Assembly (NCBI GenBank): GCA_015069135.1
Contig: SVJE01000004.1
Coordinates: forward strand, 62,001-126,000
Source: Oscillospiraceae bacterium
GTDB taxonomy: Bacteria > Bacillota > Clostridia > UBA1212 > SIG427
Direction: 5' to 3'
Length of the DNA stretch: 64,000 bases
The notes below the pieces were generated by a model. The model saw only the letters and a list, made by a program, of their open reading frames with translations, searched no databases and was not told the DNA's origin. Numbering within the stretch: position 1 is the stretch's first letter; each line of letters begins with the position of its first letter. Of the stretch, positions 15,009 to 28,067 are shown piece after piece. The translations under genes and the position numbers were made by a program.

Positions 15009-15043
15009 TAAAAAAACGCCTCAAAGTTCTGTCCTTTGAGACG
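15009..15043 (-). terminator. Leader terminator (attenuator) upstream of leuA
   Basis: Minus-strand stem cgtctcaaag (15043-15034) / ctttgaggcg (15026-15017), one U-G wobble, 7-nt loop, then T6-A-T. It lies between promoter and leuA start, so read-through must be controlled. A competing pairing of ccttgag (15082-15076) with ctcaaagg (15040-15033) would break it, and a gaggt/acctc hairpin (15078-15062) could compete with that. Confidence 0.85.
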
Positions 15044-15089
15044 GTGTAATTTCAACACTGGAGGTACCACTCACCTCAAGGTTCTGCAT
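15021..15089 (-). CDS. Putative 22-residue leader peptide of the leu operon, apparently leaderless
   Basis: The ATG at 15089 is 8 nt downstream of the last base of a perfect -10 box, so transcription should start within a base or two of it and there is no room for a ribosome-binding site. The ORF reads MQNLEVSGTSS... and ends ...RTEL with stop TGA at 15023-15021. It holds two Leu (CTT) codons, codon 4 within the candidate antiterminator strand and codon 22 in the descending arm of the terminator. Geometry suits ribosome-dependent attenuation. No homology recognised; coding status is an inference from position. Confidence 0.5.
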   Translation of the reverse strand: MQNLEVSGTSSVEITPSQRTEL

Positions 15090-15096
15090 GTGGCTT

Positions 15097-15125
15097 ATTA
15101 TATCATTGGTAAAATGTAGTGTCAA
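15097..15125 (-). promoter_or_regulatory. Consensus promoter of the leu-ilv operon
   Basis: -35 TTGACA (15125-15120), exactly 17 nt, -10 TATAAT (15102-15097), both perfect. Predicted start at 15090-15089. The spacer contains a copy of ATTTTACC. Confidence 0.85.
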
Positions 15126-15217
15126 TGTGGCGGTGGCGGGCTGCTGGGGTTTTCCGGCACTGTAAAATTTTCGTATTTCCCATTTTACAGTACTTTAAAT
15201 CAATGGAAACCGGAATA

Positions 15218-15246
15218 TTGTAACTTCTTTTTTAATAGTGTATAAT
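15218..15246 (+). promoter_or_regulatory. Promoter for the MarR-FakB/fakA operon
   Basis: -35 TTGTAA (15218-15223), 17 nt, -10 TATAAT (15241-15246); predicted start near 15253, about 56 nt before the ATG. Divergent from the leu promoter, whose -35 is ~90 bp away. Confidence 0.7.
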
Positions 15247-15251
15247 TAACC

Positions 15252-15267
15252 TGTTGACAAATCAACA
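15252..15267. promoter_or_regulatory. Candidate MarR-type operator at the fakB transcription start
   Basis: TGTTGA-CAAA-TCAACA, a perfect 6-bp dyad with 4-bp spacer, sits on the predicted start site. A second dyad, gacaaa...ttttgtc, overlaps it (15257-15277). Size and place fit autorepression by the MarR domain encoded immediately downstream. Confidence 0.45.
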
Positions 15268-15308: not shown

Positions 15309-16658
15309 ATGACCAGTAGATTCGAACACTTTTCTGTTGTCATTACAAATGTATATCGTCAGTGGATGAAAATTTCTGCAGCAGAGCTTGAGAAGTATGA
15401 AATCCGTGGACAATATGCTATTTTCATTGTAACAATGCAGCGATATCCTGACGGAGTGTCTGCGGAAGATCTGGCCGATTTGTGTGGCAGAGAAAAAATA
15501 GACGTAATTCGGTCCATGACTATATTAACAAGAAAAGGTCTCGTGGAGAAAAATCCTGCGGACAACGATATATATACCGGTGTGCTTAAGCTTACAGAAG
15601 AAGGTGATAAGCTGGCAACCGTATTAAGAGAAAAAATAAGCTTGGCTGTTGACCTTTCCTGTAAGGGTGTGTCTGCCAGAGACAGGGTGATATTCTTCAG
15701 AACATTGGAAAAAATGTCTAACAATATGCACCTTATTCTTGAGAGGGGCTTACCCTCAGAAAATATTTCTAATAAGAAAGGAACTGATACTATGGGAAAT
15801 TATGTTATTTTTACTGATTCCGGATGTGATATTAAACCTGAAATGTTAGCTGAGTGGGGTGTACCTTACAAGAGCCTTACTTTCAGATTTACTGATGATA
15901 ATGTGGAACATTCCAACGAAGATATGGACGCGTTGACATTTTACAATAAAATGCGTGAGGGAGGCGTGGCAAAGACTGCAGCGGTAAATGTAGATTCTTT
16001 TGCTGCTGATTTTGAGGAAATTCTTAAAAATGGTTTAGATATCCTTTATATCGGATTCTCCAGCGGATTAAGTACTACATATAACAGTGCACGATTAGCG
16101 GCAGACCAGTTAAGAGAAAAATATCCTGAGCGCAAGATTATTACAATAGATACATTGGCAGCTTCTGCAGGTCAGGGCCTTATTGTTTATCTGGCAGTTG
16201 AGCAGAAAAAGAAAGGTGCTACAATAGATGAAGTCAAAGCTTATGTTGAAGACCTTATTCCTCGCATGGGCATCTGGTTTACAGTTGATGATCTTGAGTA
16301 CCTTAAGAGGGGTGGACGTGTAAGTCCTACAGCAGCTTTTGTAGGTAATATGCTTGGTATCAAGCCTGTTTTATACATGGATGATGAGGGTCATCTTACA
16401 CCAAGAATGAAGGTAAGAGGAAGAAAGACAGCAATTAGCACACTTGCTCAGAAATATGCGGAAATGGCTGTAGACCACAGCAACGGAACTGTATTTATTT
16501 CCCATGGTGATTGCATTAAAGATGCTGAATTACTTGCATCTATGCTTAAGGATAAACATGGTGTAGAAGTTAAGGTTATTACAGATGTAGGTCCTGTTAT
16601 CGGTGCTCATTCCGGCCCGGGTACATTGGCTTTATTCTTTGTAGGTACTTCAAGATAG
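15309..16658 (+). CDS. MarR-like winged-helix domain fused to a DegV/FakB fatty-acid-binding protein
   Basis: 449 residues from the ATG at 15309 (AAGAGGAG upstream; a TTG at 15285 is the other option). Residues 1-~150 look like MarR: helices flank a winged HTH (DGVSAEDLADLCGREKIDVIRSMTILTRKGLVEKN). From M162 on (GNYVIFTDSGCDIKPEML) it is a full-length DegV protein: GFSSGLSTTYNSA, DTLAASAGQGL, LEYLKRGGRVS and a final GAHSGPGTLALFF. DegV proteins (FakB) bind a fatty acid for phosphorylation by FakA, encoded 10 nt downstream. An AAAGGA box 9 nt before the M162 codon could give a separate FakB. The joined form suggests a lipid-responsive regulator, comparable in logic to FabT, a MarR protein of fatty-acid synthesis. 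Function of the fusion is inferred. Confidence 0.85.
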   Translation: MTSRFEHFSVVITNVYRQWMKISAAELEKYEIRGQYAIFIVTMQRYPDGVSAEDLADLCGREKIDVIRSMTILTRKGLVEKNPADNDIYTGVLKLTEEGDKLATVLREKISLAVDLSCKGVSARDRVIFFRTLEKMSNNMHLILERGLPSENISNKKGTDTMGNYVIFTDSGCDIKPEMLAEWGVPYKSLTFRFTDDNVEHSNEDMDALTFYNKMREGGVAKTAAVNVDSFAADFEEILKNGLDILYIGFSSGLSTTYNSARLAADQLREKYPERKIITIDTLAASAGQGLIVYLAVEQKKKGATIDEVKAYVEDLIPRMGIWFTVDDLEYLKRGGRVSPTAAFVGNMLGIKPVLYMDDEGHLTPRMKVRGRKTAISTLAQKYAEMAVDHSNGTVFISHGDCIKDAELLASMLKDKHGVEVKVITDVGPVIGAHSGPGTLALFFVGTSR

Positions 16659-16668
16659 GAGATATTTT

Positions 16669-18318
16669 ATGTCCGATTATTTGTATATTGACGGCGCCCT
16701 TATGGGTAAAATGGCCATGGGTGGTGCCGCAAGACTTCGTGCGAATGCTGATGAAGTAAATAAACTTAATGTGTTTCCTGTGCCTGACGGTGATACAGGA
16801 GACAATATGCTGATGACCATTGAAAGCGGTGTAGCTGCTTTGGCAAAGGTCAATTCAGATAATATTTCTGAGGTAATGAATATATTTTCCAAAGGAATGT
16901 TATTAGGTGCCAGAGGTAACTCCGGAGTAATTCTTTCACAATTTTTTGCAGGTATTGCAAAAGGTTTTGATGGTCTTGAAAAGGCAACTGTGGAGGAAGT
17001 AGGACAGGCTTTTGAAAGCGGTGTTAAGCAGGCTTACACAGCGGTTATGAAACCAACAGAGGGAACTATCCTTACTGTAGCCAGAGAAGGTGTAGAGAAG
17101 GCGGTAAAATGTATAAATGAGTCTTCTACTGTCTATACTTTCTTTGATGATTTAGTAAAGGAGATGGAGGCTTCTCTTAAGAGAACTCCTGAAATATTGC
17201 CTGTGCTTAAGGAAGCTAACGTGGTGGACAGTGGCGGAGCCGGTCTTTTGTATATTATAGACGGATTGAATCGTGTGCTTAACGGTGAGGAAGTGCCGGA
17301 AGAAGCTTTTTCTGTTGTTTCTTCAAAAGCTTCAGTTGTAGACACTTCTTCTTTTGGTCCTGACAGCGAAATGACTTATGGTTACTGTACTGAGCTTTTG
17401 GTTCAGCTTCAGAACAGAAAAACAAATATTGATCGCTTTGATGTGGAAGAACTTAAGGCTTTCCTTATGGGTATCGGTGATTCAATTGTAGCCTTTAAGA
17501 CTGACAGCATTGTTAAAATTCATGTTCATACTTTTAAGCCTGATAAGGTTTTGGCACACTGTCGTAAGTTTGGTGAATTCTTAACTGTTAAGATAGAGAA
17601 TATGTCTGTTCAGCATACTTCACAGGTAGAAGAAGACGAAGAAATTATAATGAAAAAATACGGTATTGTGGCTGTATGTTCCGGTCCCGGTATCGAAAAT
17701 CTTTACAAAGAAATGGGCACAGATCAGGTTGTACAGGGTGGCCAGACACAGAATCCTTCCACCAATGACTTCCTGGATGCATTTTCAAAAGTTCATGCAG
17801 AGCATATATTTGCATTCCCTAATAACGGAAACATTTTACTGGCAGCTCAGCAAGCAGCAGAGCTTTATGATAAGGCTATAGTTCATGTTATTCCAAGTAA
17901 AAATGTGGGCTCAGGCTATGTCGCTATCTCTTCTGCAGACTTTTCAAATCCTGATCCTGAAGCTATTGTTTCAGAGATGATGGAAGCAATGTCTAATGTA
18001 ACTGCCGGCTATGTATCTCCTTCTATCAGAGATGCCGAAATTGGTGGTGTACACATTGAAAATGGTGATACAATAGGTGTAATAGAAAAAGAAATTGTGC
18101 TTTCCAAGAAAGATAGATTGGAAGCTGCAAGTGCTCTTGTGGATATGCTTATGGCAGACGAGGAGAAGTTTATGCTTACTGTATTTACAGGAAAGGATGC
18201 AACCGCTGAGGAGCAGGCAGAACTTTCAGCACGAATTTCTGAGAGCCAGCCATCTGCAGAGGTATACTTTGTTGAAGGTGGTCAGGATATTTATCCATAT
18301 ATATTTGTAGCGGAGTAA
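16669..18318 (+). CDS. fakA: Fatty acid kinase catalytic subunit FakA (DhaL/YloV family)
   Basis: 549 residues, the usual length. N-terminal DhaL kinase domain with the nucleotide/Mg site NVFPVPDGDTGDNM (residues about 34-47) and GARGNSGVILSQ; central FakA domain (SEMTYGYCTELLVQ, IVKIHVHT) and C-terminal DegV-like domain (IVAVCSGPGIENLYKEMG onward). It phosphorylates the fatty acid carried by FakB using ATP; acyl phosphate then enters phospholipid synthesis through PlsX/PlsY. Encoded 10 nt after the MarR-FakB gene and 3 nt before the HAD gene. Confidence 0.93.
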   Translation: MSDYLYIDGALMGKMAMGGAARLRANADEVNKLNVFPVPDGDTGDNMLMTIESGVAALAKVNSDNISEVMNIFSKGMLLGARGNSGVILSQFFAGIAKGFDGLEKATVEEVGQAFESGVKQAYTAVMKPTEGTILTVAREGVEKAVKCINESSTVYTFFDDLVKEMEASLKRTPEILPVLKEANVVDSGGAGLLYIIDGLNRVLNGEEVPEEAFSVVSSKASVVDTSSFGPDSEMTYGYCTELLVQLQNRKTNIDRFDVEELKAFLMGIGDSIVAFKTDSIVKIHVHTFKPDKVLAHCRKFGEFLTVKIENMSVQHTSQVEEDEEIIMKKYGIVAVCSGPGIENLYKEMGTDQVVQGGQTQNPSTNDFLDAFSKVHAEHIFAFPNNGNILLAAQQAAELYDKAIVHVIPSKNVGSGYVAISSADFSNPDPEAIVSEMMEAMSNVTAGYVSPSIRDAEIGGVHIENGDTIGVIEKEIVLSKKDRLEAASALVDMLMADEEKFMLTVFTGKDATAEEQAELSARISESQPSAEVYFVEGGQDIYPYIFVAE

Positions 18319-18321
18319 TTT

Positions 18322-19047
18322 ATGGGTGTAAAGTATGTCCTTTTTGATCTTGATGGTACATTGTTACCTATGGACCAGGAAGTATTTATAAAATCATATT
18401 TTGGGAAACTAGCAAAGAAATTGGTTTCTTATGGCTATGACACAGAGGAAGTTATTACTCATACCTGGAATGGTGCCCGAAGAATGGTGAAGAACGATGG
18501 AAGAGCTACAAATGCGGAAGTGTTCTGGGAATATTTTACGAGTGTTTATGGTGCGGAAAGGATATCTAAGGATATGCCTGTGTTTGATGAATTTTACCGG
18601 GTTGATTTTGATTTGGTAAAGGCAGATTGTGGCTTTAATCCTGAAGCAGCAGCTACTGTAAGGGCTATTCGTGATATGGGATTAAAGGTTTTTCTAGCTA
18701 CCAACCCTATTATTCCTGCTACGGCAACGGAGCATCGTATCAGATGGGCAGGACTTGAACCTTCCGATTTTGAAATTTATACCACATTTGAAAATTGTTG
18801 TTACGCTAAACCGAATCCTAAATACTATCTGGAACTTCTTGATAAAATCGGTGCAAAACCGGAGGAGTGTCTTATGGTTGGCAATGATGTGGATGAGGAT
18901 ATGATGACGAGAGAACTTGGAATGAAGGTGTTTTTGTTAACTGATTGCCTGATTAATAAAAATAATAAGGATATTTCACAGTATCCAAAGGGATCTTTTT
19001 GTGATTTATTGAAATATATTGATTCTGAAATTTTACAGGTAAAATAA
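18322..19047 (+). CDS. HAD-superfamily hydrolase
   Basis: 241 residues. Motif I FDLDGTLLPMD (residues 8-18), motif II in LATNPIIPA, motif III/IV around AKPNPKYY and MVGNDVDEDMM; alpha-helical cap in between. A cytosolic phosphatase of small metabolites; substrate not evident. Third gene of the fakB-fakA run (3-nt gap), so a role linked to lipid phosphate metabolism is possible but unproven. Confidence 0.85.
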   Translation: MGVKYVLFDLDGTLLPMDQEVFIKSYFGKLAKKLVSYGYDTEEVITHTWNGARRMVKNDGRATNAEVFWEYFTSVYGAERISKDMPVFDEFYRVDFDLVKADCGFNPEAAATVRAIRDMGLKVFLATNPIIPATATEHRIRWAGLEPSDFEIYTTFENCCYAKPNPKYYLELLDKIGAKPEECLMVGNDVDEDMMTRELGMKVFLLTDCLINKNNKDISQYPKGSFCDLLKYIDSEILQVK

Positions 19048-25703: not shown

Positions 25704-26045
25704 CTGCAAGTAGGCTAAACGGTCGCTGGCACAAAGTCGAAAGGCTGTGCTTGAGGAAAGTCCGGGCTTCACAAGGCAGGGTGCCGGGTAATACCCGGTG
25801 GAGGCGACTCCCAGGAAAGTGCAACAGAAAATTACCGCAGGTTTTACCTGTAAGGATGAAAAGGCGAGGTAAGAGCTCACCGGGCCTATGGTAACATAGG
25901 TCGCTGTGTAAACCCCACCTGAAGCAACACCGTAGTGGAACAAATGGTTTGCCCGACCGTTCCCCTGGTGGCTAGAGTGGTGCAGTAATGTACCGCCCAG
26001 ATAGATGACCGTTCCCGACAGAACCCGGCTTACAGGCTTGCTTGT
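25704..26045 (+). ncRNA. rnpB: RNase P RNA, class A
   Basis: Catalytic RNA that removes 5' leaders from pre-tRNA. Hallmarks: GAGGAAAGTCCGGGC at 25753-25767 (CR-I), the GAAACCGCCACGG-like centre in degenerate form, ACAGAACCCGGCTTACAG at 26018-26035 (CR-V), and P1 closing arms gcaag (25706) and cttgc (26037-26041). The internal loops agree with the class A (E. coli-like) architecture usual in Clostridia, not the Bacillus class B form. Ends are estimated to within about 5 nt. Confidence 0.95.
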
Positions 26046-26060
26046 AAAATAAAAATAAGG

Positions 26061-27400: not shown

Positions 27401-27446
27401 ATTCACTTGTAAATTTGTGGTTACACTTTGATTGGAGGGTTTTATA

Positions 27447-27710
27447 ATGGCCGAAAGTAAAAAGGTTCTGATAACTCTTCCGGAGAGCTTGTTAAGCGAG
27501 GTTGACTATCTGGCGTCACTGGATAATAAGGATAGAAGTCAGTTTATCGGTGAAGCCATGCAGCATTACCTTCAGGAGCGAAAAAGAACTGAATTTAATA
27601 CTAAGATGATTCAGGGATACAGTAAAATGGCTGAAATTAATCAAAAGATTTCGGAGGAGTGGTTAGAAGCAGAAAACGAAGCAATGGATTTGTGGGCAAG
27701 CAAAGAATAA
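27447..27710 (+). CDS. Ribbon-helix-helix antitoxin (EndoAI/MazE type)
   Basis: 87 residues from the ATG at 27447, preceded by GGAGGG. N-terminal RHH DNA-binding fold (KKVLITLPESLLSEVDYLASLDNKDRSQFIGEAM) and an acidic, helical C-terminus (EEWLEAENEAMDLWASKE) of the kind that occupies the MazF RNA groove. It should neutralise the toxin encoded 18 nt downstream and repress the operon. Confidence 0.9.
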   Translation: MAESKKVLITLPESLLSEVDYLASLDNKDRSQFIGEAMQHYLQERKRTEFNTKMIQGYSKMAEINQKISEEWLEAENEAMDLWASKE

Positions 27711-27728
27711 TTTTAGGAGTGAAATGCC

Positions 27729-28067
27729 TTGATTAAAAGGGGAGACATATTTTACGCAGATTTGCGACCGGTAGTTGGTTCGGAACAGGGCGGGATCCGT
27801 CCCGTCCTTATTATTCAAAATGATATAGGAAACAAATATAGTCCTACTGTTATTGTTGCGGCGGTTACAAGCCAGATTAACAAATCAAAGTTACCTACGC
27901 ATCTTGAATTGGATGCTAAAGAATTCGGATTGAGCAAGGACTCGGTAGTGCTTCTTGAGCAGGTGAGAACCATAGATAAATCCCGCTTACGGGAAAAAGT
28001 GTGTCATTTAGATGATAATTTTATGTGGCAGATAGACAGGAGCTTGCGAGTGAGTCTTGGTCTTTAA
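27729..28067 (+). CDS. ndoA: MazF/EndoA-type mRNA interferase toxin
   Basis: 112 residues starting at TTG 27729 with TAGGAG upstream. PemK/MazF fold: [31 protein letters not shown], the conserved [10 protein letters not shown](I)NKSKLPTH and [13 protein letters not shown]. The family cleaves single-stranded mRNA at short sites (UACAU in B. subtilis EndoA). Terminated by a GGGGTC palindrome that overlaps the last codon region. Confidence 0.94.

Follow-up and report, generated by a model that had tools for sequence, protein, structure and literature searches.

Gene content of the locus

We analyzed a 64,000-nucleotide stretch of DNA, here called the window, in which a first-pass annotation had described a MarR-like winged helix-turn-helix continuous with a complete DegV/FakB protein. 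Our analysis upholds this description. Positions 15309 to 16658 form a single open frame of 449 amino acids (translation table 11) that encodes an N-terminal MarR winged helix, then a flexible linker, and finally an entire FakB/DegV protein, and profiles and the predicted fold agree with this reading. By its sequence, the locus is a marR-fakB-fakA-HAD operon with the following features.

15218 to 15246, plus strand: sigma-70-like promoter TTGTAA-17-TATAAT (10/12 in a consensus scan; same layout in relatives)
15217 to 15230, plus strand: degenerate remnant of a -35 operator, ATTGTAACTTCTTT (from the sequence and the twin-dyad spacing in relatives)
15252 to 15267, plus strand: operator dyad TGTTGA-CAAA-TCAACA, TGTTGACAAATCAACA (from the sequence and the family-wide motif)
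15309 to 15761, plus strand: MarR-family domain (winged helix) of the fusion (profiles, alignment of relatives, predicted fold)
15762 to 15791, plus strand: linker, residues 152 to 161 (pLDDT, alignment with relatives)
15792 to 16658, plus strand: FakB (DegV family) part of the fusion (PF02645, FakB1 folds, carboxylate-site positions)
16669 to 18318, plus strand: fakA (YloV/FakA, fatty acid kinase; YloV 555 bits, FakA domains complete)
18322 to 19047, plus strand: HAD-family hydrolase, last gene of the operon (profile search, gene order in relatives)

Residues 1 to 146 (1 to 161 at the widest) are MarR-like by profile (HTH_27, E = 7.7e-5; BilQ, 3e-8; SlyA, 4e-8), and comparison with PDB sequences matches the N-terminal region to solved SlyA-type regulators. 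AlphaFold2 predicts a canonical MarR winged helix for the isolated domain, with the helix and strand order and the wing of the family (mean pLDDT 87). Together with the PDB and HMM matches, the model shows dimer helices at both termini and the winged helix between them, the arrangement by which we recognized a MarR protein. The PDB fold matches listed for this model are MarR-family regulators only, including the FabT-DNA complex 6jbx.

Residues 166 to 445 match DegV (PF02645, E = 3e-70), and the predicted structure of this part matches FakB1/DegV structures. Thr, Ser, and His are conserved at the positions aligned with the carboxylate site for fatty acids in FakB1 (T61, S93, and H266 in Staphylococcus aureus). 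A complete DegV fold, this site, and a linked FakA kinase identify the part as FakB; as annotated earlier, 10 nt separate the stop codon of the fusion from fakA, whose Dak2, middle, and C domains are all present. The HAD hydrolase begins 3 nt after fakA and is kept beside fakB/fakA in relatives. The range first assigned to the locus, 15309 to 18318, thus contains the fusion and fakA but leaves out this last gene of the same operon.

Linker residues 146 to 160 are predicted to be disordered (pLDDT <50), and similarity to stand-alone relatives stops at GLPSE (residue 151). Residues 152 to 161 are probably the old marR-fakB intergenic spacer, including the FakB ribosome site. The AAAGGA motif, proposed in the first pass to serve a free FakB, is retained at 15777 to 15782, 9 nt ahead of the ATG at 15792 (the M162 codon). 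Both motif and start match those of the separate fakB genes in the relatives compared, and initiation at ATG 15792 would probably yield free FakB as a second product beside the fusion. Upstream of the gene, the dyad begins 5 bp past the TATAAT at 15241 to 15246, just downstream of the -10 element. The window keeps this downstream dyad intact and has a degenerate upstream dyad, where relatives often have a perfect one.

We also observed other features of the window. On the minus strand, at 15017 to 15125, leuA is preceded by a perfect promoter of the extended -10 type (TTGACA-17-TATAAT with TG) and by a hairpin resembling a terminator; no Rfam family matches there, and attenuation of the leu operon is possible. 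A complete class A RNase P RNA lies at 25707 to 26048 (Rfam RF00010, 293 bits). At 27432 to 28067, a small gene of ribbon-helix-helix type precedes a PemK/MazF-like gene (translations judged by eye), and this pair is likely a toxin-antitoxin system.

Relatives of the regulator

We scanned GTDB contigs and 391 genomes of the class and obtained 84 distinct relatives of the MarR domain, from gut Clostridia and some Bacilli, including the isolate Traorella massiliensis (L064). None is fused to FakB: all 84 regulators have a gene of their own, and the proteins, of 140 to 193 amino acids, mostly end in GL/IPE followed by a stop. The idea of a MarR-FakB domain pair conserved across Clostridia is thereby rejected. 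The window's own genome carries a second, stand-alone MarR copy on contig 5 that is 45% identical to the fused domain, precedes an AMP-binding acyl ligase, and is itself preceded by a promoter that bears the same operator.

The gene that follows the regulator is DegV/FakB in 34 of the 84 relatives, an iron alcohol dehydrogenase (with an aldehyde dehydrogenase) in 12, a linear amide hydrolase in 5, an alpha/beta hydrolase in 3, and an acyl ligase and a BilR-like flavin enzyme in 2 each. A PlsC-like acyltransferase, a YhhN protein, and fabH (L139, a distant relative) follow it once each. Three relatives (L088, L094, and L104) carry marR-fakB-fakA as separate genes; there, FakB is 65 to 66% identical to the window FakB, marR has an ordinary stop, and the spacer is 28 to 51 nt.

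At six loci (L179, L176, L077, L062, L064, and L075), regulators and operators mark pairs of iron alcohol and aldehyde dehydrogenases and YhhN genes. These dehydrogenase and YhhN (lysoplasmalogenase family) contexts suggest plasmalogen or fatty-aldehyde turnover. In Fournierella (L100 and L102), a gene for a BilR-like flavin reductase comes after the regulator, and other members of the same cluster lie beyond it.

Operator and predicted regulon

The 16-bp dyad noted earlier at the promoter belongs to a motif of the whole family. An exact GTTGA-N4-TCAAC lies at most 200 bp upstream in 71 of the 85 family members (the 84 relatives and the window), compared to an average of 0.035 expected by dinucleotide shuffling and a maximum of 1 in 200 shuffles. 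The operator has the form (T/A)(T/A)GTTGA-N4-TCAAC(A/T)(A/T), and of the 102 TTGA/TCAA dyads found in the 85 upstream regions, 98 have a spacing of 4. In 52 cases the dyad encloses a -35 element that has a correctly spaced -10, and 47 dyads directly follow a -10; where a promoter has twin dyads, these are 36 to 37 bp apart in 20 of 22 instances. Because the dyads sit on the core promoter, the regulator would act by repression. Summed over 22 genomes with the regulator, we counted 42 full sites versus 5 reversed-control sites, while 22 genomes without a strong regulator match gave 10 of each.

In the 1.9-Mb genome of the window, we counted five copies of the exact core, distributed over four promoters (reversed control, 2), and all five sites are at promoters of lipid genes, in keeping with the earlier proposal that a MarR protein controls fatty-acid genes here.

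15252 to 15267 of the window, plus strand: one exact site at the promoter of the fusion
Contig 5, C5:116957: one exact site at the promoter of the stand-alone paralogue and acyl ligase (exact-core search)
G000:C4:170790-172436 (L039): two exact sites (170790 and 170826), 36 bp apart around TATAAT, before a gene for a membrane protein of XRE type and another DegV gene, the second
G000:C7:159721 (L041:751-1974), minus strand: one exact site on the -35 of a PlsC-like acyltransferase (exact-core search)

The operon with the second DegV is likely a further fatty-acid carrier operon, and a homologue of the PlsC-like protein (L106) adjoins the regulator gene in one relative. A search for the same dyad upstream of fab genes, suggested in the first pass, came back negative for the five exact sites of this genome. 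Allowing two mismatches gave 38 places versus 22 in the reversed control; since such sites are mostly background, we used only exact-core sites to define the regulon. In relatives, the core also lies away from the regulator gene, at acyl ligases (G279, G015), DegV (G217), an iron alcohol dehydrogenase (G279), and YhhN (G217). From these gene contexts, we conclude that the regulator family is predicted to control genes whose products incorporate and remodel fatty acids and aldehydes. The dyad set of the window's genome is a predicted exogenous-fatty-acid regulon, and this co-controlled gene set for fatty-acid uptake is previously undescribed.

Changes in the fused MarR domain

The first-pass annotation had proposed that sensing, substrate binding, and DNA binding lie in one chain. 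In such a single-chain, fatty-acid-responsive regulator, occupancy of FakB would alter how the MarR domain joined to it binds DNA at the promoter of the fusion. The MarR fold (as predicted), the carboxylate-site positions of FakB, and the operator at this promoter are all intact, and the recognition helix is still basic (+3, with R68 kept), as this explanation would have it. We nevertheless consider it unlikely. Position 67, beside the recognition Arg68, is Ser in all 84 relatives and Ile in the fusion, and the basic residue (R/K) of the wing, also present in 84/84, is missing. The tree branch of the fused MarR domain has a length of 1.28 against a median of 0.26, about five times longer. In an operon-matched set, the fusion has a MarR branch of 0.99 (others, 0.19 to 0.47) and a FakB branch of 0.34 (others, 0.19 to 0.45); the first is long and the second ordinary, which confines the change to the MarR part. 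The fusion is also unique among the 85 loci, the predicted disorder of the linker provides no built-in coupling, and FakB has kept an internal start. With an intact paralogue elsewhere in the genome, these data speak against the one-chain arrangement as an evolved device.

The conserved core positions of the fused MarR domain mostly hold similar residues; therefore, the domain probably still folds. Judged from the residues lost at its DNA-contact surface, it is probably a weak or non-functional binder of the operator. Ile67 alone need not abolish binding, given that enterobacterial SlyA has Val at the equivalent position, and autoregulation by the fusion is possible because the operator upstream of it is perfect.

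A domain that folds and binds DNA poorly might also act as an anti-repressor, forming poorly DNA-binding heterodimers with the intact paralogue; FakB loading would tune this, and in the presence of fatty acids the fusion would relieve repression. The dimer-building segments of MarR (N-terminal RFE.FS and C-terminal GLP) are kept while DNA-contact residues are lost, and the genome does encode an intact paralogue with the same operator. However, the two MarR sequences share just 45% identity, and many conserved positions outside the DNA surface of the fused domain have changed as well, which makes us regard this explanation as very doubtful. If it were true, the loading of the FakB carrier would directly set expression of the uptake regulon.

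Origin of the fusion

Given that the regulator is encoded apart from FakB in 84 of 84 relatives, the fusion is most likely a private loss of the marR stop codon, with an assembly error less likely. A tandem stop, TAATAA, lies at 15770 to 15775 in another frame, with a single base between it and the ribosome site of FakB. The fusion could thus have come from a change of one base, whether genuine or introduced in assembly. This stop, and the split genes of every relative, are what one would expect had a base been lost or altered near 15760 to 15775 during sequencing or assembly, joining marR and fakB genes that are truly separate. Against such an error, about 20 conserved genes that we checked in the window proved intact (PriA, L-fucose isomerase, LeuABCD, IlvB-type, GH77, and others), which indicates a low indel rate. 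The accelerated, altered MarR domain suggests a true change of status, and in 7 of 68 relatives a single stop substitution would fuse the joint, so natural fusion is easy. We therefore regard a sequencing or assembly error as quite improbable.

In the family tree, the fused MarR domain sits on a long branch with no supported position, so its orthology with the marR-fakB-fakA operons rests on gene order. The nearest family relative, G001, has fakA-plsC-fakB without a MarR of this type and thus cannot date the fusion. In that genome, the only other one of the family, a fakA-like gene, PlsC, and FakB are adjacent (L186, G001:C13), again tying PlsC to the Fak system. A search of viral contigs for a same-species copy of the joint gave no match.

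Comparison with known regulators

FabT is a MarR repressor of fatty-acid synthesis in streptococci, enterococci, and lactococci. The regulator described here resembles it in its MarR fold (6jbx is among the fold matches, at 16% identity), in being the first gene of the operon it would control, in its lipid-gene targets, and in its inverted TTGA/TCAA half-sites. In Streptococcus pyogenes, fakB4 is a FabT target, and the FabT box (ANTTTGATTATCAAATT, TTTGA-N3-TCAAA) has TTTGA arms and a spacing of 3 (PMC10138225). Here, in contrast, the arms are GTTGA and the spacing is 4; no FabT-type box occurs in the 85 upstream regions of the family, and we reject FabT membership by operator on this count and on the spacing of the dyads. 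FabT represses fab genes, with FakA, most FakB, and PlsX constitutive (PMC13046290), and acyl-ACP, its ligand (PMC9083066), acts as corepressor. Here, the incorporation genes bear the operator, none of the five exact sites in the window's genome lies at a fab gene, and only the distant L139 precedes fabH. By this comparison, the regulator is best described as a functional analogue of FabT, not as FabT by operator or gene set.

We considered BilQ, the MarR regulator of bilirubin reductase operons (PMC10769871), for two reasons: among 47 family members, 46 have it as their top NCBIfam model, and two relatives precede a BilR-like flavin reductase. However, the members listed score 24 to 33 bits, far under the cutoff of 125, the window domain scores 33.5 bits against the same cutoff (NF045593), and the gene contexts of the family are mostly fatty-acid genes. 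We therefore rejected BilQ as an assignment; within a broader MarR clade, the family and the BilQ proteins of bilirubin operons may still be grouped together. SlyA/MarR regulators of known structure share the fold and the recognition-helix Arg but differ in operator and gene set, at <25% identity. The window's FakB resembles other FakB/DegV-FakA systems in its complete FakB and FakA domains and conserved Thr/Ser/His positions and differs from them in its N-terminal MarR domain. In a search of the open-access literature (subscription papers fall outside it), we found neither a MarR-DegV fusion nor this operator.

Proposed mechanism and implications

We propose, with moderate confidence, that the locus arose by a stop-loss fusion that left an impaired MarR binder, that the paralogue represses the four promoters, and that FakB serves as a carrier. 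In the ancestral family, the regulator would repress genes for the incorporation and remodelling of exogenous fatty acids through its operator on the core promoter. The stop between marR and fakB would then have been lost in this lineage, turning the former spacer into a linker, and the fused MarR domain would have kept its fold while its altered DNA-contact surface left operator binding weak or absent. The intact paralogue on contig 5 would repress all four promoters. The signal would be acyl-CoA, acyl-ACP, or a fatty acid, and this acyl ligand would either relieve or strengthen repression; FakB, fused or freed through ATG 15792, would pass fatty acids to FakA.

The best-studied bacteria with FabT are described as incorporating exogenous fatty acids constitutively (PMC13046290), whereas the operator found here marks genes for incorporation and remodelling. 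The fusion offers a natural test of a repressor welded to the ligand carrier under its control. For uncultured gut bacteria, our analysis predicts regulated scavenging of host or diet lipids, together with plasmalogen turnover.
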